Source: Chitinophagaceae bacterium (lineage in GTDB: Bacteria > Bacteroidota > Bacteroidia > Chitinophagales > Chitinophagaceae). From it: a DNA stretch of 64,000 nt. A program made the translations under genes and the position numbers. The stretch lies in the NCBI GenBank assembly GCA_947457465.1, contig CANGWB010000001.1, forward strand, positions 186,001-250,000, read 5' to 3'. Shown one piece after another: positions 8,447 to 55,237 of the stretch (positions within the stretch are counted from its first letter, which is position 1; every line of letters starts with the position of its first letter). The notes beneath the pieces are model-generated. The model made no database searches. It was given only the letters and a program-made list of their open reading frames with translations, and was not told the DNA's origin.

Positions 8447-8522
8447 TTTATTTTTTTGCCTGACTAAATCCGGTAGTGGGATAATGCGTTTTATGGGAAA
8501 ATAACCCGACTTTTGACCGATC

Positions 8523-9557: not shown

Positions 9558-9562
9558 GGTGA

Positions 9563-9730
9563 TTAGGCCCAGAACAAATAATAAAATAATGCAGTACAAA
9601 AAAGTATAAAGAATATCCAAATCAAGGTCGAACAACCGGCACTGAGCGTGTCCATAGTATTGTCGCCCTTTTTACGAGTGAAGAGGCCAACAATAAGTCC
9701 AAGGACTAATAACCCAATCAGAAACTCCAT
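9563..9730 (-). CDS. Small two-helix membrane protein (55 aa)
   Basis: A short minus-strand frame from ATG 9730 to TAA 9563. It encodes MEFLIGLLVLGLIVGLFTRKKG, then a polar turn, then STLIWIFFILFCTALFYYLFWA: two strongly hydrophobic helices separated by a basic/polar linker, with coding-like composition. It is tail-to-tail with the DUF3089 gene (6 bp). I do not recognise a family. The two clean transmembrane segments and positive loop make a real small membrane protein plausible. Confidence 0.5.
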   Translation of the reverse strand: MEFLIGLLVLGLIVGLFTRKKGDNTMDTLSAGCSTLIWIFFILFCTALFYYLFWA

Positions 9731-9853
9731 CTCAAGTGGTTTTTATATTGTTAACTCCATGACATAACAAATGTATATATAATATATTTTTATATAAAAA
9801 TATCCAAAGTCATATTTCAATATATTAATAGAATTAAGTATTTTTAAAATAAT

Positions 9854-10801: not shown

Positions 10802-11833
10802 TCACCACACATTCCTCGGACACCCATCCGGATACTTATTGCCGATCAGGAAGCCGATCAGAAACTCATGAGTCCCTTTACTGAAATTATTCAGACGTGA
10901 AGTCGTGTAGTCGTATGCATACCCCACTTGAATATTAGAAATATTCACGCCCAGCATACCGGCAAAACCATCCTGATGCCGATAACTCGCGCCCAACCAA
11001 GCCAAATCACGGAACTGTAATTTGAAATTGCCCTCCACCTGAACCGGAAGTGGCGAAACATATTTCACCATCAGGGAGGGAATCAGATTGAAATTCTCTC
11101 CGAGTAGCGCACGGAATCCGGCCGTAGCAAATAAATGCGGAACCGTCTTTCCGGTCTGCGGACGAATATATCCGTCCGAAAAGTCGATGGTTTGCGGAAC
11201 GATCTGCTGCGCCGACAAGCCCACAAAATAATCTGATGAATACAAATAGAGTCCGGCACTCATGTCCAACCGCGTCTTATTCAAAATGCCCGACGTGAAT
11301 ACCACCGGATCGACGGTCACATCCCCGAAATTCAATTTGGCTGCATCCAATCCGATCCGATTGATGCCCACACCCAATCCCGCCGCCAGTGTAGTGTTGG
11401 TGTTCAGCGGCAAATGATACGCATAGGTTGCTTGTGCAGAGAGGGTGCTAAGCGGACCGGTAACATCCTGTACTACCTGCATGCCGATGCCATGATGCGG
11501 ATCCGGCGCTTCATACTCTTCCCAATAACTTTTCCCTCTTGGATTTTCTCCAGGCGTGGGAAAAGAGGTGGGTGATGTTTTGCTGCTTTTCTTATTCAAT
11601 GATCCGTGGATAGAAAAATAACTGGTAACCGGCGCATCCTGAATGCCCACCCACTGACGGCGATGACTGGCCTTCAGATCCACATAGCTTTCAATGCCGG
11701 TGATAGCTGGGTTGATGATATATTGATTCAGTATATACTGCGTATAATGAGGCTTTTGCTGTGCACCGGCATCGAATGCCAGTGCCAGCAATGCCGTAAT
11801 TGCGATCGACCGATATACCCGCTGCAGGATCAT
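10802..11833 (-). CDS. PorP/SprF family type IX secretion outer-membrane protein (copy 1)
   Basis: An outer-membrane beta-barrel of the PorP/SprF family, 343 residues from ATG 11833 (a GTG two codons upstream is possible). It has a signal peptide ending near AGAQ, then the hallmark QQKPHYTQYILNQYIINPAITGIESYVDLKASHRRQWVGIQDAP, seen in nearly all PorP/SprF proteins, followed by many alternating amphipathic strands. SprF-type proteins are needed for export or surface attachment of cargo with type B C-terminal domains, and are usually encoded beside that cargo, as here. It is the last gene of the five-gene operon, 20 bp after the PorE-like gene. Confidence 0.92.
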   Translation of the reverse strand: MILQRVYRSIAITALLALAFDAGAQQKPHYTQYILNQYIINPAITGIESYVDLKASHRRQWVGIQDAPVTSYFSIHGSLNKKSSKTSPTSFPTPGENPRGKSYWEEYEAPDPHHGIGMQVVQDVTGPLSTLSAQATYAYHLPLNTNTTLAAGLGVGINRIGLDAAKLNFGDVTVDPVVFTSGILNKTRLDMSAGLYLYSSDYFVGLSAQQIVPQTIDFSDGYIRPQTGKTVPHLFATAGFRALLGENFNLIPSLMVKYVSPLPVQVEGNFKLQFRDLAWLGASYRHQDGFAGMLGVNISNIQVGYAYDYTTSRLNNFSKGTHEFLIGFLIGNKYPDGCPRNVW

Positions 11834-11853
11834 TTTCACGTAATTCAGTTTAT

Positions 11854-28619: not shown

Positions 28620-28990
28620 AAAATCAATTTTGATTGGACGATAGAAGTAGTCTATAGATCGCATGCAAACATGAAATGATCATGCTGAAGAACGAAGGGA
28701 GTTTTGGTTTTATAAAGCAGTAGTCTCGCCCCTTTGCGGAACTGCATTCAAATAAAAGTCATGGAAAACGGGTCCGGAAGACTTCCCTCGAAACAGCCAA
28801 AAGGGGCACGATTACCTAAGTGTTAAATATAATTTATTTTCAGGCAGTTTTGAATCAAAATTCAAGCCCCTATTGTACTACAAATTCTACAAGGCCTCCA
28901 CCAAAGAGTATTCACTGAGATTGGGACTCACTATTGGATATTAATCATTGACTACGTACACATTAGTAACAATGTTCTGTTGTTTTATTG
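28620..28990. other. Intergenic region upstream of the giant-protein operon
   Basis: 371 bp between the phosphoribosyltransferase gene and the giant-protein gene. I find no complete TAnnTTTG on the minus strand; the nearest is CATGTTTG at 28671-28664 (one mismatch), about 45 nt before the ATG. No hairpin with a T-run, no RNA gene and no convincing small coding frame is visible. The leader and promoter of the 18-kb operon must lie here, but I cannot place them. Confidence 0.4.
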
Positions 28991-30637: not shown

Positions 30638-31048
30638 ATGGCAACCAAAAAGAAAGCCGCCAAGAAAGCAGCAAAGAAGCCTGCTAAGAAAGTGGCTAAG
30701 AAACCCGCTAAAAAAGTAGCGAAGAAAGCAGCAAAGAAGCCTGCTAAGAAAGTGGCTAAGAAAGCCGTAAAAAAAGTAGCTAAGAAGAAGTCAGCTCGTA
30801 AACCATCTGCTGCCTTCATGAAGCCCCTGACACCTAGCGCCAACCTGGCTGCTGTAGTCGGAAGCAAGGCTATGCCCCGCACCGAAGTGGTGAAGAAGAT
30901 CTGGGGTTACATCAAAACGAACAAGCTGCAGGACAAAACCAACAAGCGCATGATCAACGCAGATGCGAAGCTCAAAGCCGTATTCGGTGGTAAGAGCCAA
31001 GTATCCATGTTCGACATGGCGAAGCATTTGGCTAAGAACCTGAGCTAA
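30638..31048 (+). CDS. SWIB/MDM2-domain protein with histone-H1-like Lys/Ala tail
   Basis: A 136-residue basic protein. Residues 1-55 are an almost pure Lys/Ala/Pro/Val repeat (AKKPAKKVAKK units), like the C-terminal tail of histone H1 and bacterial AlgP/Hc1-type proteins. Residues 60-136 form a SWIB domain (FMKPLTPSANLAAVVG...KIWGYIKTNKLQ...NADAKLKAVFGGKSQVSMFDMAKHL). SWIB domains are typical of eukaryotic chromatin remodellers and also occur in chlamydiae and Bacteroidota. Likely a nucleoid-associated DNA-binding protein. The repeat contains a 60-bp direct duplication, so copy number may vary between strains. A strong terminator follows. Confidence 0.92.
   Translation: MATKKKAAKKAAKKPAKKVAKKPAKKVAKKAAKKPAKKVAKKAVKKVAKKKSARKPSAAFMKPLTPSANLAAVVGSKAMPRTEVVKKIWGYIKTNKLQDKTNKRMINADAKLKAVFGGKSQVSMFDMAKHLAKNLS
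30661..30780 (+). repeat. 60-bp tandem repeat encoding the Lys/Ala tail
   Basis: Two consecutive 60-bp units, 30661-30720 and 30721-30780, nearly identical for the first 43 bp; each encodes 20 residues of the basic tail. Confidence 0.9.
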
Positions 31049-42165: not shown

Positions 42166-43644
42166 ATGGGCATCGGACAACGACTGCAACTCAAACTGCA
42201 GCAAAAACTTTCCCCTCAGCAGATTCAACTGATGAAACTGCTGCAGATCCCTACTGCCACCCTCGAAACCCGTATCAAGGAGGAGCTGGAAGAAAACCCC
42301 GCACTTGAGTGGGAGCTGTCGACCCCGGAAGAAACAACCTCCACGACAGATGAATACGATGCTTCGCCCGATGAATCCGTAGAAGATCCTGTCACCGATA
42401 TCTACAACGATATCGATGTAAGCGATTATCTGCAAGATGGGGAAGATGAAATTCCTGAATACAAATTGCAAGTAGCAAATGGTTCATCGGACATTGAAGA
42501 CAGAACTTTTCAAGATGCCTCCCCTGTCAGTTTCTATGAATTGATGCTCGACCAAATGCACTGGCTCGAGCTGAACGAAACCGAACAACAGGTAGCCGAA
42601 CAAATCATCGGCAGCCTAGATGAAGACGGATACCTTCGCCGCGACCTTCAAGCCATCGTAGATGATCTGGCTTTCCGACAAAACCTATACGTAGATGAAA
42701 AACTCGTGGGGGCCGTATTGAAACGCGTGCAAGAACTCGATCCGCCCGGCATCGCCGCCCGCGATCTACAAGAATGTTTATTGATACAACTCCGACGCTT
42801 GGAAGCGGAAGGGAAGGAAGTAAAAAAAGCGAAACAACTCATCGAGCAGTATTTCGAAGAATTCACCCGCAAGAATTTCGATAAGCTGCAACGTGATCTT
42901 GGAATGAGCGATGAAGAGCTTCGATCCGTGTTACAACAGATCACCAAATTGAATCCCAAACCAGGCGGACGAAGTGAAGGGACCGAACAACAACAGTATG
43001 TGATTCCGGACTTTTTCGTGATCAATAACCAGGGCCGACTGGAGCTGACCCTCAACAGCCGAAATGCACCTGAACTTCGAGTCAGCCCCGAATACAAAGA
43101 AATGCTTAAGCATTACGATGCGAGCAGTAAAAAAAATCGATCGGAGAAAGAAGCCGTTCTATTCATCAAACAAAAGATAGACTCCGCTAAGTGGTTCATC
43201 GATGCGATTCAGCAGCGTCAACAGACATTGACCTTGGTGATGGATCAGATCCTTGAATATCAACAACAATTTTTTCTGACGGGTGACGAAACAGCCCTTC
43301 GTCCCATGATCCTGAAAGACATCGCCGCCCGCACCGGACTCGATATCTCTACTATCAGCCGAGTGGCTAACAGCAAATTTGTACAAACTGAATTCGGTAC
43401 ATACCGACTCAAATTCTTTTTCAGCGAGGCCGTACAAACTCAAAGCGGTGAGGAAGCTTCCACCCGGGAAGTGAAGAAGATCGTATCGGAGCTGATCGAA
43501 ACAGAAGATAAAAAAAATCCGCTCAGTGATGATCATTTGACAGAATTACTAGTCCAACGCGGCTATACCGTTGCTAGAAGAACTGTAGCCAAATACCGTG
43601 AACAATTGAACCTTCCCGTTGCCCGATTACGAAAGGAGCTGTAG
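42166..43644 (+). CDS. rpoN: RNA polymerase sigma-54 factor
   Basis: Sigma-54 of RNA polymerase, 492 residues. Region I is rich in Gln/Leu (LQLKLQQKLSPQQIQLMKLLQIPTATLETRIKEELEENP) and binds activators and core; the acidic region II follows (residues 45-110); the core-binding and central region spans about 120-330; the HTH and the RpoN box lie at the C-terminus (TVARRTVAKYREQLNLPVARLRKEL, with the diagnostic ARRTVAKYRE at about 472-481). It directs transcription from -24/-12 promoters with AAA+ activators; no such promoter or activator is evident in this window. Convergent with the MBOAT gene (22 bp). Confidence 0.97.
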   Translation: MGIGQRLQLKLQQKLSPQQIQLMKLLQIPTATLETRIKEELEENPALEWELSTPEETTSTTDEYDASPDESVEDPVTDIYNDIDVSDYLQDGEDEIPEYKLQVANGSSDIEDRTFQDASPVSFYELMLDQMHWLELNETEQQVAEQIIGSLDEDGYLRRDLQAIVDDLAFRQNLYVDEKLVGAVLKRVQELDPPGIAARDLQECLLIQLRRLEAEGKEVKKAKQLIEQYFEEFTRKNFDKLQRDLGMSDEELRSVLQQITKLNPKPGGRSEGTEQQQYVIPDFFVINNQGRLELTLNSRNAPELRVSPEYKEMLKHYDASSKKNRSEKEAVLFIKQKIDSAKWFIDAIQQRQQTLTLVMDQILEYQQQFFLTGDETALRPMILKDIAARTGLDISTISRVANSKFVQTEFGTYRLKFFFSEAVQTQSGEEASTREVKKIVSELIETEDKKNPLSDDHLTELLVQRGYTVARRTVAKYREQLNLPVARLRKEL

Positions 43645-43666: not shown

Positions 43667-45154
43667 TTAAAATTCGATATAAATGAATGAGATCGCTTCG
43701 GTTTGGACAAGCTGATATAAAACCCAAACTAGAAAGGCAAAGCCAAGCCCCAGTAACCACATACTTAATCGAGTAATCTGCTTAGACAGTAGGGTATAGA
43801 AGCGAACGGGGAGATACTGAGAAAATACAGCTATGATCAACACCATAGCTGGCCACTGGTAGATCGAAAACCAATCCGAAAACAGGGTAAAATCAATACC
43901 TGATAATATTTTTGCCCAATACCCGAAAGCAGAATTAATATCTGAACTATTGATGAGCACAGATGTGAGGGCAAGGAAAAGAAGCGTGGCAACCACGCTA
44001 AATACTTTGTACGATTTACCACCGATTGCAGCAATTTTCTTTCGCATGCCCGCCGTTGCAATCTCAAAACAAATGGCAATTCCATGTAATACACCCCACA
44101 AGATAAATGTAAGGTTCGCTCCGTGCCAAATTCCAGAAATGAGAAATGTTGCAAATACAGCCAGAATGACTCCTTTTAGCTTTAAGTGACGAAGGTGAAA
44201 CGCAATTGGTTGATACACGTATTCATTCAACCAATCATATAGTGTAATGTGCCAACGCTTCCAAAATCCAGTTATATTTTCCGCTTTAAAAGGTTGATTA
44301 AAATTGCCCTTTATTGGATAACCCATCATAAGTGATAGTCCAACCACGAGATCCGTATAGCCCGCAAAGTCAAAATACAAGCGAAACAAACCGGCAAAAG
44401 CACCGATAAATAATTCAAATGATGAGAAGAATTGTGGGCTTTCAAAAAGACGATCCGTCAGATTTGCAGCCAGATAATCCGCCACTGCAATCTTCTTTAT
44501 AAGACCAATGGAAATAATAAATACAGACTGAGAAATTATATCTCTTGTAATGCTGACAGTACTATTGAATGAAGGCAACAGATCACGAGCCTTTGTGATC
44601 GGACCAGCTAGAATATTTGGGAAATAGGAAACGTACAAGAGATATCGGAAATAATTCCGCTCGGGCTCTTCAATCACTTCCCGATGTATATCGATTGAAT
44701 ATGTCAGCGACTTAAATACAAAATAACTGATCCCGATAGGTTGGAGAATGGCAAGAGGTTCTACCGGATTCGTGGAAGCGAACACATTATAAAGGCCAAT
44801 GAAAAAATTAGTGTATTTGAAATAAAAAAGCAGTCCGATATTTAAAGAAACAGACAGTAGCAATAATAGATTCTTATCGCGGGACCTAGACGCTCTAGCG
44901 CTGGTGATGGCCATGTAGTAATCACAAAAAGCCAACCCACATAGAACCAATACAAACCAGCCACTTAATTTATAATAGAAAAAAAGTCCGAAAAATAAAA
45001 GAAGGCCATTACGTGTACGGATCTTTTCACTATTCAGTGAAGAATAAATCGCATAAAAGAAAGAAAAGACGATGAAAAAACCAGTAGTCTGTAAAAGCAT
45101 CGGTCTTTCCGGATCATAGGCAAGAAAAGATCGAAGCGAGTCCCAGATATCCAT
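43667..45154 (-). CDS. MBOAT family O-acyltransferase (DltB/AlgI-like)
   Basis: A 495-residue polytopic membrane enzyme of the MBOAT family. The signature IGISYFVFKSLTYSIDIHRE (about 140-158), YFPNILAGPITKARDLLP, FDFAGYTDLVVGLSLMMGYPI, and FWKRWHITLYDWL (His302) are all present, with the catalytic His344 in GIWHGANLTFILWGVLHG. Such proteins move acyl groups from a cytosolic donor across the membrane to an extracytoplasmic glycan (DltB, AlgI, PatA). Here the donor is plausibly the carrier protein encoded three genes upstream. Last gene of the operon (29 bp after the SGNH gene). Confidence 0.93.
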   Translation of the reverse strand: MDIWDSLRSFLAYDPERPMLLQTTGFFIVFSFFYAIYSSLNSEKIRTRNGLLLFFGLFFYYKLSGWFVLVLCGLAFCDYYMAITSARASRSRDKNLLLLLSVSLNIGLLFYFKYTNFFIGLYNVFASTNPVEPLAILQPIGISYFVFKSLTYSIDIHREVIEEPERNYFRYLLYVSYFPNILAGPITKARDLLPSFNSTVSITRDIISQSVFIISIGLIKKIAVADYLAANLTDRLFESPQFFSSFELFIGAFAGLFRLYFDFAGYTDLVVGLSLMMGYPIKGNFNQPFKAENITGFWKRWHITLYDWLNEYVYQPIAFHLRHLKLKGVILAVFATFLISGIWHGANLTFILWGVLHGIAICFEIATAGMRKKIAAIGGKSYKVFSVVATLLFLALTSVLINSSDINSAFGYWAKILSGIDFTLFSDWFSIYQWPAMVLIIAVFSQYLPVRFYTLLSKQITRLSMWLLGLGFAFLVWVLYQLVQTEAISFIYIEF

Positions 45155-45183
45155 GCCGGTTGATTTTTAGTTTGATCGGTGGT

Positions 45184-46635
45184 TTACGGAAATAAGATCG
45201 GGGCATCGATCTGCTTTCGTTTCAGAAACTGTCGGTATTCATACATCAGTGATAGAAAAATGGCCCGCGCTAAAAGGGCGCGTCCTCTGTTTGAGAAGTG
45301 GCCATCACGGCTCGAGAGCTTACGATCATACCACACCTGTATGGCGTTTTCACCTCCCATCCATTGCAAGAGATCAAAAAATGCCATCCCTTGTTCAACG
45401 GCATGTTGCCGTTGTGCGTATCGCAAAGCCCCGATGTTAGGATAAGATTTATAGCCCCCACCTGTTGACCTTGACACATCATTAACGCCAATCACCAATA
45501 AAGAAATACTATCTGTTGCGCGCTGAACATATCCATATGTTTTTTTGTAAAGATTGCCGTATAAGGCGATCGCTTTTTCATTTCGAAGGCCCGGTACCAC
45601 ATTTCCTCCAAATTCCAGAATCGTCAATCGATTATTGAGGATCGCATTCATTTTCCGAAAATGCTCTTCTTGGATCAGTTGTAGACCATCACCGGCCTGA
45701 CCACGTAAACCATAGTTATCAAACTGAATACCATAAACCGGATCGAAATAGAACCCATAGATCACTGGGGGCGGACCGGTAAAACGAAAGTTCAAACGAG
45801 CTTCTCCGGATCGAACAGAAAGAGTCAAGAGATTGAAGTCGGATTCCTGATCAAGTGTGTGGGTCGCCAGTTTTTGTTGACTCGTACCGGAATAAACTTC
45901 CAGCAAACTTTGAGCAGAACCCTTACCGTAAGCAAGCTTGATCACCTGATATTGACGCATCAATTGTAGGCCAATGGTACCAGTCTGTGAGGAATCGTAT
46001 AAAAAACATGTTCCTCCGATACCATAAGGATATTTCTTGGTTTTATTATTAAAGATTGAATAGCGTGTCCATGATTTTCCTGTTTGACGTACATACGATA
46101 CGGGTGCGGTGATGTCAACAAGAGGAACAAAACCCACTCCGTTACCGACAAAAGCATCTTGAAACAAAATCCGCAATTGATCGGTCAATCGATCTCCCTC
46201 AATCTGTGAATCACCATAATGTGCCACTCGAATCAAGTCGCTAGAGTCAACAGATAACGTATGAAGCGACTGAAAAAAATTATCCAGGGGGAACGTTCCG
46301 TCAGGGCGCTGGCAATTGACTAAAAAAGGCGACTCGACCAACACGCTGTCGGAAAGGGGCCGCGAAAGGAACTTTTCTAAACTATCTACATAACGGTCGA
46401 TCTCTTCACGCGTTTTCTCCGGAAACAGTTCTATTTTTTTGCAAACAACTGAATCAGGTTTTTCTGCTTTTATGGCTTTGGGGGCATCCGTCGTATCAAC
46501 AGATTTATCGCGCCAACTCCAACCCCGAAGTGTATATCCATTCCATTCTATGGGCCACTGCCGAACAGAAAAGTGCAGCGCAGAACTGAATAATAGTAAT
46601 GACAGTAAAAAAATTAAGCCGGGACGACTATTCAT
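45184..46635 (-). CDS. SGNH hydrolase-type esterase/acyltransferase, exported
   Basis: A 483-residue protein with one N-terminal transmembrane segment or uncleaved signal (GLIFLLSLLLFSSALHF). The SGNH catalytic blocks are visible: nucleophile Ser143 in HYGDSQIEGDR, the Gly/Asn blocks LEFGGNV and LVIGVNDVS, and the C-terminal Asp-x-His in SRDGHFSNRGRALLARAIF. It sits between the acyl carrier and the MBOAT gene (4 and 29 bp), the place taken by DltD or AlgX/AlgJ in other envelope acylation systems. A carbohydrate O-acyltransferase or esterase in the periplasm is the best inference. The region before the first block is helical and unlike DltD. Confidence 0.88.
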   Translation of the reverse strand: MNSRPGLIFLLSLLLFSSALHFSVRQWPIEWNGYTLRGWSWRDKSVDTTDAPKAIKAEKPDSVVCKKIELFPEKTREEIDRYVDSLEKFLSRPLSDSVLVESPFLVNCQRPDGTFPLDNFFQSLHTLSVDSSDLIRVAHYGDSQIEGDRLTDQLRILFQDAFVGNGVGFVPLVDITAPVSYVRQTGKSWTRYSIFNNKTKKYPYGIGGTCFLYDSSQTGTIGLQLMRQYQVIKLAYGKGSAQSLLEVYSGTSQQKLATHTLDQESDFNLLTLSVRSGEARLNFRFTGPPPVIYGFYFDPVYGIQFDNYGLRGQAGDGLQLIQEEHFRKMNAILNNRLTILEFGGNVVPGLRNEKAIALYGNLYKKTYGYVQRATDSISLLVIGVNDVSRSTGGGYKSYPNIGALRYAQRQHAVEQGMAFFDLLQWMGGENAIQVWYDRKLSSRDGHFSNRGRALLARAIFLSLMYEYRQFLKRKQIDAPILFP

Positions 46636-46639
46636 ACCT

Positions 46640-46873
46640 TCAGGTAATTTTTTCTTGGATCAATTGCATTAAGTCGCCTACATTTTTTAGCTTAATCAGT
46701 TCTTTCAGCTTGAATTTTATTTGAAACTCTACCTCTACCCGCTCGATCATCAGTAGGTGCGTCAGGCTATCCCACTTCTCAACATCTCCGGCAGTCATAT
46801 CCGGACGAATCTCCAAGTTCGGCGCATCAAAAACAACGCGAAACAAATCCTGTAATCTAGTTTGTATATCCAT
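46640..46873 (-). CDS. Acyl carrier protein of the envelope-modification operon
   Basis: A 77-residue acyl/peptidyl carrier protein. Four-helix pattern with phosphopantetheine attachment Ser36 in EKWDSLTHLLMIERVEVEFQ, and acidic helix II. The first helix (MDIQTRLQDLFRVVF) matches the DltC-like and D-alanyl carrier group better than the fatty-acid ACP (which would read DSLD). It lies 2 bp from the GNAT gene and 4 bp from the SGNH gene, so it is the obvious partner of the adenylating ligase encoded upstream. A 4'-phosphopantetheinyl transferase is not in this window. Confidence 0.92.
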   Translation of the reverse strand: MDIQTRLQDLFRVVFDAPNLEIRPDMTAGDVEKWDSLTHLLMIERVEVEFQIKFKLKELIKLKNVGDLMQLIQEKIT

Positions 46874-46875
46874 GT

Positions 46876-47550
46876 TTATACCTTTTTTTCCATTAAAACC
46901 ATTTCTGAAAAGGGAAGTTGATCGACTAGTTCAGGCGCTGAGATACTAGTCTTAGACCACGATACAAAACCCAGTTTTTGGTATGAGTGGATGGCGCGGT
47001 CGTTATTAGCATAGGTGATGACTTGAAAGGCTTGAACATCGGGATGACTTGTCTGGATATCAGCAACCTGTCTTGACCACATACCAGACAATATCCCCAT
47101 TCCCCTGCATTTTTCAACAACATATACCGACTCGAGTTGAGCCGCGCGTGGCGATCGGGGTGGTAATAATCCGCCTCCTTTTTCGATCAGTTGCCGAAAA
47201 TGGTCATAATTATTAGCAGGCAGAAGCTCCCGGAAACAGAGTATTCTTTTATTCCAAGAAGGCACACCGTCGGCAGATTCTACCCACGTTGCACATGCCC
47301 CAACCGGCTCGCCATCTTTTTCAGCCACGATAAATGAATTCTCATCAAACTCAAACCCTGCTATTTCCAAGTCGAATATTTGTATAAATAAACTTGTCAG
47401 CTCATACCGATTTAGATTCAACAACACCCCATATGCACTTCTTTCTGTACCGCTTTGGTCAGCCTCAATGATGGTTTGAGCCAAGAATGCTCTATCGGCA
47501 GGCTGCGCCCGTCGGTATACAATATTACTATTGTGGGCTGTTCGACTCAT
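46876..47550 (-). CDS. GNAT family N-acetyltransferase
   Basis: A 224-residue GNAT-fold acyltransferase from ATG 47550 (an ATG at 47586 is possible, but it would overlap the upstream gene by 59 bp). The start IVYRRAQPADRAFLAQTI is the beta1-alpha1 signature, and the pyrophosphate-binding motif A is LESVYVVEKCRGMGILSGMW (RGMGI). The late helix-strand AFQVITYANNDRAIHSYQKLGFVSW is a classic motif B ending. It overlaps the end of the adenylating ligase by 23 bp and is 2 bp from the carrier protein gene, so translational coupling with both is likely. It may N-acylate the amino acid on the carrier, an inference from order alone. Confidence 0.88.
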   Translation of the reverse strand: MSRTAHNSNIVYRRAQPADRAFLAQTIIEADQSGTERSAYGVLLNLNRYELTSLFIQIFDLEIAGFEFDENSFIVAEKDGEPVGACATWVESADGVPSWNKRILCFRELLPANNYDHFRQLIEKGGGLLPPRSPRAAQLESVYVVEKCRGMGILSGMWSRQVADIQTSHPDVQAFQVITYANNDRAIHSYQKLGFVSWSKTSISAPELVDQLPFSEMVLMEKKV

Positions 47551-49015
47551 ATAAACTGCGCAGTTGGTTTCGATCCAGCTTTCCATTTTGGTTCAATGGA
47601 AATGTTTGCATCAATAAGATGGTCTCGGGAAGCATATATTTTGGAAGCGCCTTCTGCAATTGAGCACGTATGGTTTCACTATCGATTTCCGTTCCCTCAA
47701 CATAAAGTATCAAATGGTGAATCCCCTTCTGATCGGTCGACACAATGGCAGCAGTCTTGAGTTTCAGATGCTGCTCTGCCTGATACTCAACCTCACTCAA
47801 CTCGACCCGATAGCCGTTTAGTTTTATTTGATGATCTTTTCTTCCCAGATAGAAAAGGTCCCCGTCATCGTCTTGAATGACAATGTCGCCGGTATTGTAG
47901 TAACGAATGCCTTCGAATTCAAGAAAAAGACGCGCATTCAATTCCTCAATATGAATATATCCGGGAGAGGTTTGCGCACCCCCGATCCAAAGATCTCCTT
48001 TTAGATTGGAGGAGGTAAGAATGCCTGACTCATCCCGTAATTGAGCCTTTGAATCAATCGTAGGAGAACCGATACACACAATACCATTATGACTCTTGAT
48101 CTCCGAGCGAGGAATTTTGTAAACAGTACAAAAAATTGTACACTCGGTGGGCCCATAGAAATTATAAAACTGAGCATTGGGGCAACAGACTTGCCACGCC
48201 TGTGTGAGTCCAAGTGGAACCGCCTCTCCACTAAGCGCCATCACGCGAAGGTTCGGAAGCAAAATGCTGTCGAAATAGGGCCGCAGCATCGCCAACACGG
48301 ATGGAACGATGATGGCGAAGTGAATTTCGTACTCCTCTAACAAACGATATATCTCTAGGTATTTAACGCGGGTAGAAGAAACGTGGTAGATCGTTCCACC
48401 ATGAATGAGTGGAAGTAAAATGGATACGACTGAAAGATCGAAGGTGAACTCGAACATCTGCAAATAACGAGCCTGTTCGGGCAGCCCCAGATGCATCGAA
48501 TCTACGTGACGAAGGAAGGATTGTAAATTGCCCCAATTGATCCGTACTCCTTTGGGGACCCCGGTACTACCGGAGGTAAACAGTATGTACGCAAGGTCAT
48601 TTTGCGAACGCTCGATCAATGGGTAAGTAGGAGGCAAGCCCTCTATAGACAAACGAGTTGTATTCGTAGTAACCGGTTTGTCGGAGATGCCGGGAACGTC
48701 CTCTATTGTAGATAAAACAAGTTTAAGGTCGGCCATTTCCCGAATGGACTCTATCCTGCCTGATGGATAACTTGGGTGTAGGGGTACATAAGCATTTCCG
48801 GTGATCCAAACAGCCAATATTGAAGCATATGTGTCGATATGATCGGACACATAAATGCCAATCATGGAATTACGAAGCTGGTGTGCGTCGATGTGTCTTG
48901 CGATCAAAAAAACACGTTCCCGAAGCTGACTATATGAAAAATAAGTATCATCCAGACAAAGGGCAGATGACTCAGATAAAGAGGGATTGTAGAGGAAAGA
49001 AAGTATTTCTCTCAC
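47528..49015 (-). CDS. Amino-acid adenylating ligase, DltA-like
   Basis: A 495-residue stand-alone adenylation domain (ANL superfamily) with a GTG start. Core motifs: TSGSTGVPKG (147-156), the A4 segment FTFDLSV with Asp193 which would bind an alpha-amino group, YGPTE (287-291), TGD (375-377), the GRKDHQIKLNGYRVEL hinge (391-406) and catalytic Lys479 in NQNGKLDR. It would activate an amino acid and load the adjacent carrier protein. The layout resembles DltA, but the position of the DltA FCGE cysteine, implicated in D-alanine recognition, reads LSGE here, so D-alanine cannot be assumed. No condensation or thioesterase domain is present, against a peptide-synthetase role. Confidence 0.9.
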   Translation of the reverse strand: MREILSFLYNPSLSESSALCLDDTYFSYSQLRERVFLIARHIDAHQLRNSMIGIYVSDHIDTYASILAVWITGNAYVPLHPSYPSGRIESIREMADLKLVLSTIEDVPGISDKPVTTNTTRLSIEGLPPTYPLIERSQNDLAYILFTSGSTGVPKGVRINWGNLQSFLRHVDSMHLGLPEQARYLQMFEFTFDLSVVSILLPLIHGGTIYHVSSTRVKYLEIYRLLEEYEIHFAIIVPSVLAMLRPYFDSILLPNLRVMALSGEAVPLGLTQAWQVCCPNAQFYNFYGPTECTIFCTVYKIPRSEIKSHNGIVCIGSPTIDSKAQLRDESGILTSSNLKGDLWIGGAQTSPGYIHIEELNARLFLEFEGIRYYNTGDIVIQDDDGDLFYLGRKDHQIKLNGYRVELSEVEYQAEQHLKLKTAAIVSTDQKGIHHLILYVEGTEIDSETIRAQLQKALPKYMLPETILLMQTFPLNQNGKLDRNQLRSLYESNSPQ

Positions 49016-49039
49016 GTGTGGGTATTGTTGAAGGTTGAA

Positions 49040-49525
49040 TTATTTCATCAAACCCGATTTTCGAATGGCGTTCATGATGGTTTTCCGCCAAGCTGCCGGT
49101 TGGGTAGAATAGCCATAATTGCTGATGGAAGTAACCCAAGCCTCGCAAGAAGGATTCCCTTTCAACTTGGCGTAATAGGGTTTTGAAGCGACCAATTTGG
49201 CAAAAGCGACATACGAGTCTTCGATAGTTGGAAATTGACGATACATCGTCTTGATTCCATGCGTTTTGAGCACGTTATTTTTCCCTACAATACCGAAATG
49301 ATTGTTCAGCAGGCGCGCATTTCGGGACGTGCCAGAACCCGACTCAATGATGGCAACTCCAAGAATTACACCTGTGGGAATTCCGTATTGTCTGGAAAGT
49401 GAATCCGCAACCGGCTGATATTTTTTGACATAGGGGGATTGCGAAAAAGAAGAAGCAATCGAACAAATGCTCAATAAGAACAACAGCAAAATACGATTGA
49501 GATCGGCTTTACTGACAATTTTCAT
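49040..49525 (-). CDS. Glucosaminidase/FlgJ-like peptidoglycan hydrolase
   Basis: A 161-residue exported hydrolase from ATG 49525 (an upstream ATG at 49567 lacks signal features). Signal peptide ILLLFLLSICSIASSFS, then a glucosaminidase domain (GH73): YQPVADSLSRQYGIPTGVILGVAIIESGSGTSRNARLLNNHFGIVGKNN, where Glu of AIIESGSG is the catalytic acid, and the SYVAFAKLVASKPYYAKLKG and ISNYGYSTQPAAW end motifs. It cleaves the GlcNAc-MurNAc backbone of peptidoglycan. It lies 24 bp before the adenylating ligase gene, and a consensus -7 element precedes it, so it appears to be the first gene of the acyl-modification operon. Confidence 0.9.
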   Translation of the reverse strand: MKIVSKADLNRILLLFLLSICSIASSFSQSPYVKKYQPVADSLSRQYGIPTGVILGVAIIESGSGTSRNARLLNNHFGIVGKNNVLKTHGIKTMYRQFPTIEDSYVAFAKLVASKPYYAKLKGNPSCEAWVTSISNYGYSTQPAAWRKTIMNAIRKSGLMK

Positions 49526-49648: not shown

Positions 49649-50290
49649 ATGGAGCGATTCTCGACAAGCATAATAAAACACCCCGTTTCAACAATCACCT
49701 CATGGATCTTCCATCCGGTATTCCAGCCGGTTATCCTGGTTGCCTTTCTTCTTTTCAGTGACACGTCCACCTTGTTTTTAGGATTCCGACCCGCACAACG
49801 CTGGATGATTCTCGGACAAGCATTTACCTTATATACTTTTTTTCCGCTGGTGACAGTTGGGCTCTTGAAAGCCTTGGGATTCCTGGAATCTGTTCAACTG
49901 AAAACACAACGGGAACGTGTGATCCCGTTGATAGCCATCGGTATTTGGTACTTCTGGATCTGGTACGTATGGAAAAACCTACCAGACCATCCGATCGAGT
50001 TGGTTCGATTCGCACTGGCCACATGGACAACCTCCTGGATCGCCCTGATGATAAACGTACGCATGAAGATCAGTTTGCATACGATCGGAGCCGGGCTAAT
50101 TGTCACCTTTCTTTTTCTCTGGGCACAGCAGCATTCGTATGGAGCAGGCATCTATTTACCTGTTGCCTGTATTTGGGCAGGATCCGTCGGTGTTGCTCGT
50201 TTACAGGTGTCAGATCACAGCCAGATGGAGGTAGTTGCAGGATACCTGTTAGGTGCAGCAACCATGTTGGCCATACAAGTGATTTACTAA
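49649..50290 (+). CDS. PAP2-like integral membrane protein
   Basis: A 213-residue protein with six or so hydrophobic helices. The tract KTQRERVIPL, the ISLHTIGAGLIV segment and SDHSQMEVVAGYLLGAATM near the C-terminus resemble the C-terminal part of phosphatidic-acid phosphatase (PAP2) proteins common in Bacteroidota, where an SxxH and an HxxxE-like motif remain. Strict PAP2 active-site spacing is not met, so catalysis is doubtful. It is divergently transcribed from the envelope acylation operon, and its stop is 3 bp from the opposing histidine kinase stop. Possible envelope lipid role. Confidence 0.7.
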   Translation: MERFSTSIIKHPVSTITSWIFHPVFQPVILVAFLLFSDTSTLFLGFRPAQRWMILGQAFTLYTFFPLVTVGLLKALGFLESVQLKTQRERVIPLIAIGIWYFWIWYVWKNLPDHPIELVRFALATWTTSWIALMINVRMKISLHTIGAGLIVTFLFLWAQQHSYGAGIYLPVACIWAGSVGVARLQVSDHSQMEVVAGYLLGAATMLAIQVIY

Positions 50291-50293
50291 AAA

Positions 50294-53275
50294 TCATGCA
50301 TCAGCCGAAGGGAACGTGATCGTGAATACAGTTCGGCGATTCGCAGACTGAACCGATACGGTTGCCCCATGCTCATCGGCAACATTTTTAACGATGCTGA
50401 GCCCAAGTCCCGTACCGCTTTTATGATGTTTGGTGGTAAAAAACTTCCGAAAGATCTGGCTGATTATTGATGCCGGAATCTCAGGTCCTGTATTCTCAAC
50501 AGAGACAGAAACCCCTGCAGCTGTTTTCTCAGACCGTATGACAAGTTGCTTATCCGTTTCCTCATCCATGGCATCAAGAGCGTTCTTGATCAGATTCGAC
50601 CAAAGCTGAAACAATTTCACTTCGTACCCCATGACAATGTGATCCGGATCCACGCTGAAATCAAGTGTCACATCTCTTCTCAGTTCGTATTGGAAAATAT
50701 TGAGTACGACAGAAATATTGTCGCGCAAATGAATGAGTTGCTGAGAAGACTGAACATCCTTTTTGATGAAGGATCGCACAACACGGATCACCTTACTGGC
50801 ACGATCGACGGATATACGAATGCTGTCGAGTAACGTTCGAATGGTTTGTATCTGCTGTATAAGATTCAGTACAGCGATGGGGTCGCGGGAGGTAAGAATA
50901 CGGCGTAGCGAATCCGAATCTTCTTCAGCGATTCTACAACGCACCAGTTTATCGGCCATCTGCGAACGCAATTCATCCGACAATCCGCTGGCCTCCTGCA
51001 AAGAGCGTAGATACGATTCCATTCGCTGAGATTCCCCACGAAGCTGCAATCCGCCCAAATAGATATCCTTCACAATGGGCTTAGCGAGGGATAACGCCTC
51101 TGAGAGCAATTCGGGATCAGCCTGCGATACCTGCTGTCCGATCAGGGTTTCCAACGAATACGAAACACTTTCTGCACCGGCCTTTATGGAACTGAGCGGC
51201 GTATTCAGATCATGCGCAATACCGGCAGATATCTCTCCGACCGTTGCGAGTTTTTCCTGATCCACGATCATGCGGGACAAGTCAAGATTCTTCTTCGTAT
51301 TCTCGAGTACCTTTTGCTCCAGTGTTTCATTCATTTTGCGAAGCTCTTCTTCGTTGCGAAGTAGGGCCTGCTGTGCCTCCTCACGGATCTGTTCTTGCTG
51401 CTTCCTAACGGTAATATCTCGAATGAAGGCACAGAAAAGACGAATACCATCCTGGTCGATGGGTACGATAGAAATATCGATCGGAAACTCAATGTCGCCC
51501 TTCCGAAGTCCGGTAATTTCAATGGTCTTGTTGAGTACCGGTCCTTCTCCGGTATTTCGGTAATGTGCCATACCGCGCTCGTGAGCCTGTTTATATTGAT
51601 CAGGTATGATCAACTCCGATAAGCGTACGCCGATAGCCTCCTCTTTGGTAAACCCGAAGATATTAGTAGCAGGTTGGTTCCAGAAGCGAATGACCCCCTC
51701 CAGATCCATGATGATGATGGCATCGAGCGCCGCATCCATGGTCTGTCGCATACGAAGTTCGCTGTCACGCAAGGCGATATCGACCATTTTCCGTTCAGAA
51801 ATATCAGACTCCACGGCAATGTACCCTCTCAAAATTCCACTCTCGTCACGCATGGGCACGATGTTCAGACTCAGCCAATATTCATTGCCGTACTTACCCC
51901 GGTTAAGAATTTCAACGTTCTTGATCGGTAATTCTTGTTCGAGACATTCGCGGATGTATTTTCTGGTTTCCGGGTCTGTTTTTTCAAATTGAAATATTGC
52001 CGGCGTCATACCGATGACCTCTTCTCTTGAGAAGCCCGTAAGTTTTTCAAAACTATCATTGACCCAGATGATCTTTCTGTGTGGGTCGGTGATGACTACT
52101 AGATTGGATGTGTATTTTGCAACAAGTGACAGGCGGCTTATCTCCTCTTCGATCAATTTTCGATCGGTGATATCCTGAATGATTCCTGAAAAGCTAACAA
52201 CTTTGCCATGTGCATCCAATACAAAATCCGTTGTGGCCGTTACCCACCGTCGCTGTCCATCGATCGGCCGTATGATCTGCCAGTCTCTTAGAACCGGATT
52301 TCGCTCTTGTGTTTCAATCAGATTTTTAAAATAGGCAGCCATCACCTCTTGATCTTCTGGAACAATCAATTCTACCCAACCGGCAAATGTTCGGGGATAG
52401 GACGGGGTAAACCCCATGATGTCGTTGATCGAATCGGAGTGTGTCCAGTTGTCTTCCGCTACATAATATGTATAGTACCCAAACTTTGAAATTTTGTTCA
52501 GTTTTTCCAATCGCGTCAAGGCGTCATTCAGATCTTTCGTACGTAGTTGTACTTCTGATTCAAGCCCCGTTGTGAGTTGTTGATTTTTTTGACGCAGTTC
52601 GATCAGTCCTTTTCGCAGCGAATCAAAAGCATAACTCAGCTCGCCGATTTCATCTTGTTTGGTTAGGCCCGGTATAGAGATGTCATATTTCCCTTTTTCC
52701 AGTTTGTGCGCAGATTCAGTTAGGGCAAAAATGGGTCGTGTGATCTGACGGGCTATGAAAAAGAACACGATAAGTCCGACGACAAATACAAGAGGCAGAA
52801 TGACATAAACGGGACGATTGAGCTCCCAAACCAACGCATCGATCTTCTCCCGAGAGGCAGCGATCAGGATGCAACCTGTAAATTCAGATGTAGTGAAATC
52901 GAATTTCTGATAAACATATTTATTCTCATCACGAACTAGCACCTGTGATTCAGGCAGTTTCGGGAAGGTGGCAAATACGGTTTCTTTTTTCGTAATCGTA
53001 TCTTCTTCTAAAATGGATACGAATTCAAAGTCATTGGATGCGGAAACAAAATCAACCGTCCGCTTCAATCCTTCAAAATCATTGGCACTCAGGGAAAGCT
53101 CAACACCCAACGCAACGGTTTTGGCAAGTTCCCTCAATTCGCGCTCTTTATTTTCCCTGAATAGTCTGGCCTGCCGGTTGGGATAATTGACCGTTACAAA
53201 TCCGATCAAGATCAGGAGCACCAAGGCATAAGGAAACCAGATTCGGAATGAGATCTGTTGATAAAAACGGCGCAT
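50294..53275 (-). CDS. Membrane HAMP/PAS sensor histidine kinase
   Basis: A 993-residue sensor kinase. Transmembrane helix (about 12-27), periplasmic loop of about 120 residues, second transmembrane helix (about 151-173) and HAMP (about 174-226, RQITRPIFALTESAHKLEKGKYD). A coiled coil and three PAS/PAC domains follow (near 255-380, 385-510 and 510-630), then a HisKA domain with the phospho-His in GEISAGIAHDLNTPLSSIKAGAES and an HATPase domain (ENTGPEIPA, HKSGTGLGLSIVKNVADEHG). A helical insertion separates the His and ATPase parts. It ends the operon of receiver, beta-barrel and PstS-like protein, and probably reads a signal through the periplasmic binding protein. Partner regulator: the receiver at 54794. 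Confidence 0.93.
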   Translation of the reverse strand: MRRFYQQISFRIWFPYALVLLILIGFVTVNYPNRQARLFRENKERELRELAKTVALGVELSLSANDFEGLKRTVDFVSASNDFEFVSILEEDTITKKETVFATFPKLPESQVLVRDENKYVYQKFDFTTSEFTGCILIAASREKIDALVWELNRPVYVILPLVFVVGLIVFFFIARQITRPIFALTESAHKLEKGKYDISIPGLTKQDEIGELSYAFDSLRKGLIELRQKNQQLTTGLESEVQLRTKDLNDALTRLEKLNKISKFGYYTYYVAEDNWTHSDSINDIMGFTPSYPRTFAGWVELIVPEDQEVMAAYFKNLIETQERNPVLRDWQIIRPIDGQRRWVTATTDFVLDAHGKVVSFSGIIQDITDRKLIEEEISRLSLVAKYTSNLVVITDPHRKIIWVNDSFEKLTGFSREEVIGMTPAIFQFEKTDPETRKYIRECLEQELPIKNVEILNRGKYGNEYWLSLNIVPMRDESGILRGYIAVESDISERKMVDIALRDSELRMRQTMDAALDAIIIMDLEGVIRFWNQPATNIFGFTKEEAIGVRLSELIIPDQYKQAHERGMAHYRNTGEGPVLNKTIEITGLRKGDIEFPIDISIVPIDQDGIRLFCAFIRDITVRKQQEQIREEAQQALLRNEEELRKMNETLEQKVLENTKKNLDLSRMIVDQEKLATVGEISAGIAHDLNTPLSSIKAGAESVSYSLETLIGQQVSQADPELLSEALSLAKPIVKDIYLGGLQLRGESQRMESYLRSLQEASGLSDELRSQMADKLVRCRIAEEDSDSLRRILTSRDPIAVLNLIQQIQTIRTLLDSIRISVDRASKVIRVVRSFIKKDVQSSQQLIHLRDNISVVLNIFQYELRRDVTLDFSVDPDHIVMGYEVKLFQLWSNLIKNALDAMDEETDKQLVIRSEKTAAGVSVSVENTGPEIPASIISQIFRKFFTTKHHKSGTGLGLSIVKNVADEHGATVSVQSANRRTVFTITFPSADA

Positions 53276-53278
53276 GCG

Positions 53279-53731
53279 TCAGTTCTGAATAGAAATGATG
53301 GTGAGGGTGGGGGGCACCGGTGTACTGCTGGCTATGACGCCGATTGCACCAGGTGTTTTTTGAACGAACTGGATCAAATCCTGATCGGTATCAAAAAAGC
53401 TGGGCGGAGTGGATCGACCTTGAAACACCTGCAATAACCAGAATTTCTGAACAGAAGCCGGATTGGTTCCGTAGATCAATCTGGCAACCGGTTCAGCAGT
53501 ATGGGCTTGGGGTGAGGGAAGCGCAATCGTAACAGAAATTTTATTAGGCCAGGTCGTGGTTTTAGCTCGAAAAATATTTCGCGCCTCCGATGTTTTTAGT
53601 TGCGTTTGTCCGGTTTTATTTCCAATGACAGTCAATTCACCCCATGCTTGTTGAGCAGATAGGTCAGCATTAAACAACATTCCTGCCAGTAGCAAGAATC
53701 CTATTGTTATATGGTGATGTAGTTTACTCAT
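53279..53731 (-). CDS. Short PstS-like periplasmic binding protein
   Basis: A 150-residue exported protein (signal peptide ITIGFLLLAGMLFNADLSAQ) with a type II periplasmic-binding half: GELTVIGNKTG, ARNIFRAKTTTWPN, YGTNPASVQKFWLLQVFQGRS and FVQKTPGAIGVI, which match the end of the PstS/PBP-like domain. It is about half the length of a full phosphate-binding protein. No phosphate-binding loop or permease is present. Its ATG overlaps the stop of the barrel gene by one base (TGATG), and it lies 3 bp before the kinase gene. It likely acts as the ligand-binding or sensing subunit of the kinase. Confidence 0.8.
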   Translation of the reverse strand: MSKLHHHITIGFLLLAGMLFNADLSAQQAWGELTVIGNKTGQTQLKTSEARNIFRAKTTTWPNKISVTIALPSPQAHTAEPVARLIYGTNPASVQKFWLLQVFQGRSTPPSFFDTDQDLIQFVQKTPGAIGVIASSTPVPPTLTIISIQN

Positions 53732-54789
53732 CAAAAGCCATAGGCAAATTGAACACGTAATGAGGTTCGATCGCGGTGTGCCTGCGTGGTCGGGTGGTTT
53801 CCGTCCGTAAACCGTTCGATCTGGGCCTTTATGTTTATGAACGGACTGAATTCATATTTGTAACCGATCGCAAACTTATTTGTCTGTAACTCGTATGTGT
53901 GCAGATCATTATGGGCAATGTGCATGAAATCCCAAAGTACATAGGGCACATGTTTTTCTTTCACCCGCTTACCGATGTACAGGAAGTTGGCGAAATTACT
54001 GGCGAGCCCCAGCGAATCTGTATGCGTGGCGTTATAAGTGAATTCATTCAGTGTTTCCCAGCTCTCATTAAAATTAGCGTAGGAGGCACTGATCAAATGG
54101 TAATTCAGTCGGCCTTTGTACAGCGGACCGGAATAGTGTGAACGAGGGGAGGAGTGGCCGCTGTGTACCCCTGAAATATTTTGCTCAAGCAGGTCATAAT
54201 AGTAAGAGGCCCCGATGCGCATACCCTCCTTGGGCTTGAAATGAAAAGCCGCCGTCAGAGACATATCGACATTATCGTTGAAAGCATCACTGGACGAAAT
54301 ACCGTTTCCGATCACGATATCATAGCCGAAATTGGACTTGCCAAGATTTTGTCCCTGTAACTGTACCCCCAACGTATGAAGAGGTACCAGGTAAGAGAAA
54401 GAATTTGGACGATCGATCACAGGAAAGAACAATCGGCCATGGTGGTATACATCATTCCAGTAGTTGACCGGCGAGTGGATTTTTCCAACGATCAGATTGC
54501 GATTGTTCTTATAATTGAATTTCAGAAATCCGCGTTCGATACTCGGAAGAAAGGTTGTTCCGGATGAACCATTATAACGAACGACGAATTCGCCCAGAAA
54601 AGAGATCTTGTTATTCAATTTTGAGGAAACAAAAAAATCATGCTCCCCGATGGAAAAATAGGAATCAGCATGATCGCTATAGTCCATGGAATATTCCAGA
54701 TGACCAAATCCATTGAACTGCGTGGTTGGTTTTTGTGCCCACATCAAAAAAGGCAACAACAGGTAAAACAATATGGCAAGCTTGCGCAT
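53731..54789 (-). CDS. Outer-membrane beta-barrel (porin-like) of a signalling operon
   Basis: A 352-residue protein from ATG 54789, which follows the receiver stop by 4 bp and has a signal peptide (MRKLAILFYLLLPFLMWAQ); a longer frame to 54933 would overlap the receiver gene. The mature part alternates hydrophobic and polar residues in strands (FNGFGHLEYSMDYSD, ISFLGEFVVRYNG, RGFLKFNYKNNRNLIVGKIHSPVNYWND) and ends in Phe, as beta-barrels do (RTSLRVQFAYGF). It may admit or bind the ligand sensed by the PstS-like protein and kinase. No family name is certain beyond porin-like. Confidence 0.75.
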   Translation of the reverse strand: MRKLAILFYLLLPFLMWAQKPTTQFNGFGHLEYSMDYSDHADSYFSIGEHDFFVSSKLNNKISFLGEFVVRYNGSSGTTFLPSIERGFLKFNYKNNRNLIVGKIHSPVNYWNDVYHHGRLFFPVIDRPNSFSYLVPLHTLGVQLQGQNLGKSNFGYDIVIGNGISSSDAFNDNVDMSLTAAFHFKPKEGMRIGASYYYDLLEQNISGVHSGHSSPRSHYSGPLYKGRLNYHLISASYANFNESWETLNEFTYNATHTDSLGLASNFANFLYIGKRVKEKHVPYVLWDFMHIAHNDLHTYELQTNKFAIGYKYEFSPFINIKAQIERFTDGNHPTTQAHRDRTSLRVQFAYGF

Positions 54790-54793
54790 ACGA

Positions 54794-55237
54794 TCAGGCG
54801 TTTGGGGAATTGGGAAGCAGAAAATTCCGCTCGTATTTAAGAGAAAGCACCGGCTCCAGTAATTGGAACAGATCTCCCTCTTCCCAAGGTTTAGGCAAAA
54901 AAGATTCCAGATAGTTCTCATCGGCCAGGGCATCTACATGAATGGCGTTTGCCTGTCCAGACAACATGAGGCACTTGATCTGCGGATATTTGGTCTTTAC
55001 CAAACGGATCAGATCCGCACCTGACATCTTGGGCATTTGATAGTCAACGATCAGAAATAGCGTTTCAATCCCCTGCTCTTTCAACTGATCGATCCCGGGC
55101 AACACGTCCTCCGGAGCGGTGAAAAACTCACAAATAGTAACCTTCGGATCGATTATTTTCTCCAATTGAAAGCCAAGCATCTGCAGCACGATCGGATCGT
55201 CATCTGCACAAACCAAGGCATACTTGATGATTGACAT
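54794..55237 (-). CDS. Response regulator receiver protein (CheY-like) with C-terminal tail
   Basis: A 147-residue stand-alone receiver. It has an acidic pocket ADDDP (11-15), the phosphoacceptor Asp in FLIVDYQMPKMSG (about 64), a Ser in CLMLSGQA and a Lys in FLPKPWEEGDL. The C-terminal extension (LEPVLSLKYERNFLLPNSPNA) has no DNA-binding domain. First gene of the four-gene operon. It may be the phospho-partner of the HAMP/PAS kinase at 50294, passing a signal by protein-protein contact. Two inverted repeats lie upstream. Confidence 0.9.
   Translation of the reverse strand: MSIIKYALVCADDDPIVLQMLGFQLEKIIDPKVTICEFFTAPEDVLPGIDQLKEQGIETLFLIVDYQMPKMSGADLIRLVKTKYPQIKCLMLSGQANAIHVDALADENYLESFLPKPWEEGDLFQLLEPVLSLKYERNFLLPNSPNA

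Follow-up and report, generated by a model that had tools for sequence, protein, structure and literature searches.

MBOAT/SGNH acylation has been described in two forms, the Dlt system, with a carrier protein and DltX, and acyl-coenzyme A (acyl-CoA) systems with a fused shuttle (PMC12148441, in excerpt). The same excerpt presents MBOAT/SGNH pathways other than Dlt as having no carrier protein, and it reports that the Tyr of an FXYXXF motif is acetylated in PatA and cites the same for DltX. In Dlt (DltABCDX), which D-alanylates teichoic acid, a ligase charges the carrier, an MBOAT with a docking segment receives it, and an SGNH protein works outside; the contacts of DltC on DltB are listed as Met302, Val305, Ile306, Met309, Lys312, and Arg317 in a section of PMC11035591. 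In the AlmEFG system, which adds glycine to lipopolysaccharide (LPS) in Vibrio, a ligase and a carrier likewise feed an envelope acyltransferase of a Gram-negative cell, and AlmG is termed an LPLAT-type transferase in part of PMC3783018. Trios of an adenylating enzyme, a GNAT, and a carrier (SbzB-SbzC-SbzG and SbzL-SbzI-SbzG) are proven in SB-203208 biosynthesis, where the loaded carrier serves as acyl donor for the GNATs SbzC and SbzI (PMC6331615, in excerpt). We here analyze an operon in a 64,000 nucleotide stretch (the window) of contig CANGWB010000001.1 from a Chitinophagaceae bacterium, an operon that combines the carrier-dependent form of MBOAT/SGNH acylation with the fused-shuttle form. 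No prior description of this operon was found in the open-licence PubMed Central papers searched.

We propose that the operon exports an acyl group derived from an amino acid. The ligase would adenylate a small alpha-amino acid and load it on the phosphopantetheine of the carrier, and the GNAT would cap the amino group of this loaded residue with an acyl group, probably acetyl from acetyl-CoA, to give an N-acyl-aminoacyl thioester. A basic, DltB-like segment of the MBOAT would serve as docking site for the charged carrier, and the MBOAT would transfer the acyl group at the periplasmic side to Tyr492, which lies in the FxYxxF motif at the C-terminus of the same protein. The SGNH protein, of Ape1 fold, would take the acyl group and esterify a glycan hydroxyl, most likely of peptidoglycan, and the glucosaminidase would remodel the modified wall. 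From the observed gene set and its conservation, the motifs, the predicted folds, and the correlation between carrier genes and the docking segment, we give this full chain a probability of about one half. Its core, the carrier-fed export of an amino-acid-derived acyl group by MBOAT and SGNH, is likely. If the proposal holds, Gram-negative envelopes should bear new kinds of ester group, probably on peptidoglycan, and we know of no bacterium with an O-(N-acyl-aminoacyl) ester of peptidoglycan.

The operon consists of six compact open reading frames (ORFs) on the minus strand at 43667-49525. An earlier, sequence-only reading of this DNA had reported six minus-strand genes with gaps of -23 to 29 bp, and all ORFs and gaps were borne out; from MBOAT to glucosaminidase the gaps are 29, 4, 2, -23, and 24 bp. 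The host genome, a draft of 2.06 Mb in 46 contigs, has a single PF03062 match and a single match to the ACPS family of phosphopantetheinyl transferases. The features are, in window coordinates:

49040..49525, minus strand: glucosaminidase (PF01832), first gene of the operon, with a signal-like N-terminal segment (Pfam Glucosaminidase, 1.6e-21)
47528..49015, minus strand: stand-alone amino-acid adenylating ligase of the DltA or non-ribosomal peptide synthetase (NRPS) A-domain type, GTG start (AMP-binding, 3e-54)
46876..47550, minus strand: GNAT-fold acyltransferase; an in-frame ATG at 47586 is a possible alternative start (GNAT, 4.5e-8)
46640..46873, minus strand: carrier protein (PP-binding, 2.9e-4)
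46766-46768, minus strand: expected phosphopantetheine site of the carrier, Ser36, by its motif WDSL
45184..46635, minus strand: SGNH protein (GDSL_2, 1.4e-3, below the Pfam cut-off)
43667..45154, minus strand: MBOAT acyltransferase with a fused C-terminal acyl-shuttle motif (PF03062, 4.2e-29)
44180..44212, minus strand: QPIAFHLRHLK, MBOAT residues 315-325, in the register of the DltC-contacting helix of DltB
43670..43687, minus strand: FIYIEF, MBOAT residues 490-495, fitting the FXYXXF acyl-shuttle motif
42166..43644, plus strand: rpoN (by Pfam), outside the operon, conserved left boundary of the site and kept in genus mates
49649..50290, plus strand: PAP2-like gene (PF01569, below cut-off), outside the operon, right boundary in most genus-mate loci

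Judged from sequence and models, the system belongs to neither Dlt nor PatA/PatB/Ape1: it resembles Dlt in its steps up to the membrane and PatA in those beyond it. The sequence-only reading had called the operon Dlt-like, which holds for its logic of ligase, carrier, MBOAT docking, and SGNH but not for membership. The ligase scores 283.1 bits with the DltA equivalog TIGR01734 (cut-off 559.85) and the MBOAT 160.4 bits with the DltB equivalog TIGR04091 (cut-off 375). With gaps of 29 bp or less, the operon, which is the only part of the genome searched for DltX, cannot accommodate this microprotein, and the shuttle Tyr is fused to the MBOAT instead of residing on DltX. The SGNH protein is Ape1-like, a GNAT and a glucosaminidase are added, and the envelope is that of a Gram-negative cell. 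With PatA/PatB/Ape1 the operon shares an MBOAT with fused FXYXXF, an Ape1-type SGNH with a CBM35-like insert, and a probable peptidoglycan target. It differs in having a ligase and a carrier where PatA uses acetyl-CoA, in lacking the GG loop described below, and in lacking a PatB-type SGNH in the operon (Gly312 rather than Ser or Asn). Acetyl-CoA is disfavoured as donor for the window MBOAT by the presence of a carrier gene and the absence of the GG loop. Compared to AlmEFG, the membrane transferase is an MBOAT with an SGNH partner and not of LPLAT type, and the Sbz trios differ in that their GNAT acylates a small molecule and no membrane export is involved.

The only solved sequence relatives of the window MBOAT were DltB. 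His302 and His344 are conserved, and Tyr492 lies within FIYIEF at the C-terminus. The strict FxYxxF motif was found in 34 of 40 complete MBOATs of the set, in which some contigs occur twice, and the remaining six keep the Tyr. QPIAFHLRHLK is in register with DltB 302-312, where MBOATs without a linked carrier gene bear a GG loop; the Dlt-like logic of the sequence-only reading is matched by a DltB-like carrier-docking segment. An initial comparison of the GG loop, which covered the G007 MBOAT described below, scored carrier genes on the same strand within 1.6 kb. In 62 MBOATs we read the docking positions by constant spacing from the FWxRWH motif. GG was present at DltB positions 305/306 in 26 of 27 unlinked MBOATs and in none of 35 linked ones, while position 309 was R or K in all 35 linked MBOATs and position 312 K or R in 21 of them. 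When the carrier was accepted within 5.5 kb on either strand, the pattern GG[NS] was absent in 37 of 38 linked and present in 28 of 29 unlinked MBOATs (67 distinct sequences), the exceptions being the second MBOAT of L228 and that of L085. Many loci in these first comparisons had been found through the GNAT. A 62-leaf MBOAT tree had five changes between linked and unlinked labels (six with the segment masked) against a mean of about 20 for shuffled labels. The linked MBOATs formed four pure clades and a singleton (five and one with the segment masked), with some low supports.

We also collected MBOATs by the family model from 198 genomes of the phylum. Eighty regions taken down the list gave 79 distinct MBOATs, a sample that was largely new, with at least one genome (G051) shared with the earlier set. 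Here the loop was defined by the broader pattern [GA]G[NSTRHAD], and a carrier gene was accepted within 4.5 kb on either strand. None of the 70 GG-type MBOATs had a carrier gene within this distance, while six of the nine non-GG MBOATs had one 0-134 bp away on the same strand. All six carried a charging enzyme beside the carrier, a Pfam-confirmed AMP-binding protein of 567-586 aa in five and an FkbH-like protein in L346. The five with an AMP-binding protein (L359, L364, L356, L353, and L360) also had a window-like SGNH. The other three non-GG MBOATs were that of L367, with a basic segment, two window-like SGNHs, and no carrier in the fetched region, and those of L312 and L362, with other loops.

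A short feature of the docking site, a basic helix or a GG loop, appears to tell carrier-fed from CoA-fed MBOATs, and if this is true the donor type would be predictable in uncharacterised loci. We tentatively extend this to a class: Bacteroidota may hold carrier-fed MBOAT/SGNH systems of PatA type in which varied charging enzymes lead to different acyl groups on envelope polymers, the docking segment reading the donor and the window operon making an O-(N-acyl-aminoacyl) ester of peptidoglycan. The charging enzymes met across these loci are the amino-acid ligase with GNAT, a second AMP-ligase of about 570 aa, and the FkbH-like protein.

The gene set was found to be conserved. Genomes of named species were scanned with the GNAT alignment alone as anchor, and partner genes were scored with locally built models. 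This gave 49 loci, near-identical ones counted separately; their GNATs fall into 45 groups at 85%, and eight loci are on contigs also present in other samples of this analysis. On the same strand and within 1.5 kb, a ligase was found in 41 loci, a carrier in 40, and both in 37, and an MBOAT lay within 5.5 kb on the same strand in 27; in these counts some contigs stop near the genes, and the carrier of L253, inside a longer ORF, was missed, although a tblastn search of that contig detected it. Counted over the 31 loci whose contigs run on for at least 5.5 kb downstream, the ligase was present in 27, the carrier in 25, and the MBOAT in 19, with 17 loci having all of them. Since an anchor on the GNAT alone recovers ligase, carrier, and MBOAT, the genes cluster beyond chance. 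The titles of the scanned genomes with loci include Chitinophagaceae, Marinifilum, Arcticiflavibacter luteus, Marinilabiliaceae, Lentimicrobiaceae, and Ignavibacteria; the A. luteus locus (L230) is of the MBOAT-SGNHe form. A scan of genome contigs with the SGNH alone gave no matches.

Matches to the ligase across the phylum lay mostly in long NRPS frames, and a stricter E-value at family rank was used instead. A close stand-alone ligase (E <= 1e-64) was found in 16 of 394 sampled genomes of the family, the host included. Five of the 15 other loci contain ligase, GNAT, carrier, and MBOAT (L193, L196, L199, L201, and, with extra genes, L203), and four contain ligase-GNAT-carrier with no MBOAT within the region in view. 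The remaining six (L195, L197, L202, L204, L205, and L206), which lie in polysaccharide-type clusters, contain ligase, a second GNAT type, carrier, and a hexapeptide transferase; they are the same charging trio ending in a cytoplasmic enzyme.

All six window genes occur in window order in L207, a metagenome-assembled genome of Chitinophagaceae, with a second SGNH before the MBOAT. The flanks of L207 differ from those of the window, with an M20 peptidase upstream, and the identities to the window proteins are 55% for the glucosaminidase, 52% for the ligase, 36% for the GNAT, 61% for the carrier, 46% for the first SGNH, and 53% for the MBOAT. The order ligase-GNAT-carrier-SGNH-SGNH-MBOAT is common to L210, L224, L251, and L252, the last two being near-identical, and L237 has GNAT-carrier-SGNH-SGNH-MBOAT with no ligase called. 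L175 has SGNH-carrier-MBOAT twice, and the close ligases of that genome are on another contig, so the carrier pairs with the MBOAT even away from the ligase. The unit of ligase, carrier, SGNH, and MBOAT that the sequence-only reading had picked out is therefore conserved in Bacteroidota outside the host genus; its expected conservation in relatives fails only locally, as the cassette is found in none of the 17 genus-mate loci treated below.

Some of these loci carry further genes. In L235, 4HBT thioesterase-like genes (2183-2623 and 7667-8107) lie within two tandem ligase-carrier-MBOAT-SGNH operons. In L228 (6513-6920) and L245 (6575-6985) a Glyoxalase_4 (VOC) protein is encoded between ligase and GNAT. 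VOC-type folds include methylmalonyl-CoA epimerases, and this protein might epimerise an acyl thioester.

The core Asp, which binds the alpha-amine (GrsA 235), and the core Lys (GrsA 517) were present in all 54 non-identical ligases of the set, in what we take to be the GrsA numbering of the pocket positions. The pocket code of the window ligase, read without DltA or AlmE sequences alongside, is DLVVASFIFK, and the same code was found in L207. Its bulky residues suggest a small alpha-amino acid as substrate. The top solved relatives of the ligase were the adenylation domains of LgrA, and the highest solved match in a single stretch was 7r27, a D-alanine carrier-protein ligase. LgrA itself, of linear gramicidin, differs in being one large synthetase with a formyl group and no envelope role. 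The dedicated carrier, with its expected Ser36, had one solved relative at E <= 0.1, the putative acyl carrier protein 2lml (E 4.8e-16).

The amino acid might be exported free, as in Dlt, with the GNAT acting elsewhere and the wall gaining positive charge. The ligase is related to DltA (283 bits, below the TIGR01734 cut-off) and the MBOAT to DltB, which fits such plain aminoacylation. However, a GNAT was found in all 15 other family ligase loci, of the window type in nine and of the second type in six, and a formyltransferase lies by the ligase in L074 and L203; Dlt has neither. In L074 (8170-10750) the ligase and carrier occur without a GNAT, and the formyltransferase (Formyl_trans_N and C) follows right after the carrier on the opposite strand. 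In L203 it is located between ligase and carrier, within a run (4449-10453) of ligase, formyltransferase, carrier, GNAT, second carrier, MBOAT, and a DUF1574-like gene. The LgrA initiation module N-formylates its carrier-bound amino acid. We consider export of a free amino acid distinctly improbable: because a GNAT accompanies the ligase in all 15 loci and is absent from Dlt, N-capping of the group before export is probable, and the modification would not necessarily make the wall more positive.

The GNAT model (predicted local distance difference test, pLDDT, 92.7) has a GNAT fold by structure comparison. SbzI-SbzG (8zt4) was found at rank 15 and the C-terminal domain of Ebony (6dym) at Z 13.8. 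With these matches and the proven Sbz trios (PMC6331615, in excerpt), the GNAT could instead place the aminoacyl group of the carrier on a cytoplasmic acceptor, leaving MBOAT and SGNH only to O-acetylate the wall from acetyl-CoA. Many other GNAT structures matched about as well as these two, and the fold does not separate an acetylase from a carrier-dependent transferase. Against a cytoplasmic acceptor are the DltB-like docking segment, borne by carrier-adjacent MBOATs and nearly absent from others, and the SGNH-carrier-MBOAT sets without an adjoining ligase, and this alternative is quite unlikely.

The SGNH protein has an N-terminal helix (residues 5-26) that is a probable membrane anchor, and its model (pLDDT 82) has an Ape1-type fold with a CBM35-like insert and the residues Ser143, Asn345, Asp444, and His446. 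The model matched the peptidoglycan O-acetylesterase 4k3u at Z 34.1 (339 residues, 2.9 A), which we take to be Neisseria Ape1, and Campylobacter jejuni Ape1 at Z 30.8 and 30.2; the next structure scored 14.8. CBM35 structures matched residues 165-302, and Ape1 carries a CBM35 insertion (PMC9487903, in excerpt). PatB was not among the structure matches listed, which does not exclude a likeness to it. Among sequence models at E <= 0.1 the only match was GDSL_2 of Pfam, with none to the DltD family or NCBIfam.

The second SGNH ends in a LysM domain in all six sister operons scanned (L207, L210, L224, L237, L251, and L252), and LysM SGNHs also occur in L227 and L367. The second SGNHs of three carrier-less loci (L075, L076, and L078) gave no LysM match. 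The window lacks a second SGNH, and a search of the host genome with the LysM-type SGNH matched only the SGNH of the operon. The sequence-only reading had excluded teichoic acid and left LPS, capsule, and peptidoglycan open as targets. The Ape1-type fold, the LysM domains on the second SGNH of the sister operons, and the glucosaminidase at the head of the operon favour peptidoglycan, which is most likely the acceptor of the window subtype. An exported surface polysaccharide or LPS as acceptor would be compatible with the core of our proposal. Apparent polysaccharide genes are found close to some of the sister systems that have other SGNH types, and in six ligase-carrier loci of such clusters a hexapeptide transferase takes the place of the MBOAT. 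Set against the three features of the window subtype, this acceptor is rather unlikely.

Several points weigh against the full chain. We infer the identity of the amino acid, the reaction of the GNAT, the acceptor, and the transferase direction of the SGNH protein. The first MBOAT comparison rests on related sequences, and the carrier model is specific to the window subfamily, such that other carriers could be missed. The GNAT is the weakest link. By analogy with the carrier-dependent SbzC and SbzI it may not be an acetylase, and its numbers do not always equal those of the ligase. One ligase and one GNAT were found in 32 of the 49 GNAT-anchored loci and two of each in three, while two loci had one ligase and two GNATs, two had two ligases and one GNAT, L234 had one ligase and four GNATs, and nine had no strong ligase match. 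In the host genus, neither ligase, GNAT, nor carrier was found by BLAST in any of 17 loci at the same site, some of whose contigs end close to it, and seven of the 17 (one at a contig end) hold the glucosaminidase without MBOAT or SGNH. The glucosaminidase is accordingly weaker as evidence on the target, and its membership in the operon is likely, not proven.

The SGNH protein adds a further point. Its block II Gly312 is canonical and invariant in 16 aligned SGNHs, whereas PatB transferases have Ser or Asn at this position (PMC12148441, in excerpt), and it could for this reason be an esterase rather than a transferase. In that case the acceptor would be acylated either directly by the MBOAT or by an unlinked transferase supplied by it, and the core of the proposal would be kept. 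The nearest folds are also esterases. However, the protein is the sole SGNH of the operon and could be anchored by its N-terminal helix, the LysM protein looks like the partner in the Ape1 role where two SGNHs occur, and no such LysM protein turned up in the host genome search. An esterase is therefore unlikely, and we retain the transferase direction.

The site between rpoN and the PAP2-like gene, upstream of recA, is common across the genus. Eight of the 17 genus-mate loci hold an MBOAT followed by a gene of 421-434 aa (one cut by a contig end), of which the three scanned (L147, L148, and L158) belong to the DHHW family. L146 holds an MBOAT and a DHHW gene of 446 aa, and L077, from genome G007, holds glucosaminidase-SGNH-MBOAT without ligase, GNAT, and carrier, its MBOAT having the GG loop. 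Together with the loci holding the glucosaminidase, this gives four kinds of content besides that of the window, and the rpoN-recA interval is a swap site for acylation genes. RpoN of G007 is 80% identical to that of the window, yet the SGNH is 27% identical over 380 residues and the MBOAT 38% over the first 306 residues and 29% over 536; therefore close relatives carry different acylation sets at one site, and one locus in one genus bears either donor version. The G007 MBOAT (L077, 3425-5068) also has a core insertion of about 50 residues compared to the other 11 aligned.

Insertion of a ligase cassette into an acetylation locus of the genus, as suggested by G007, was considered and is weakened by L207, which holds the whole set including the glucosaminidase elsewhere. 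Loss or replacement in the genus mates is as likely as insertion. In a midpoint-rooted tree of the glucosaminidase L207 lies outside the genus copies, which does not decide between the two.

Models of phage defence gave no match. Elsewhere in the window, a protein of 1560 aa with IgGFc_binding, PKD repeats, and a CHU_C type IX secretion domain is encoded at 14936-19618, adjoined by an ORF of 3011 aa at 19629-28664; a PorP/SprF gene (10802-11839) and an OmpA-domain gene (11854-13863) are located near it. A lysine- and alanine-rich N-terminus resembling histone H1 is fused to a SWIB domain at 30638-31048. Three nearly touching minus-strand genes at 50294-54933 encode a PAS-rich histidine kinase, a small PBP-like protein below the Pfam cut-off, and a protein of 400 aa without a Pfam match.

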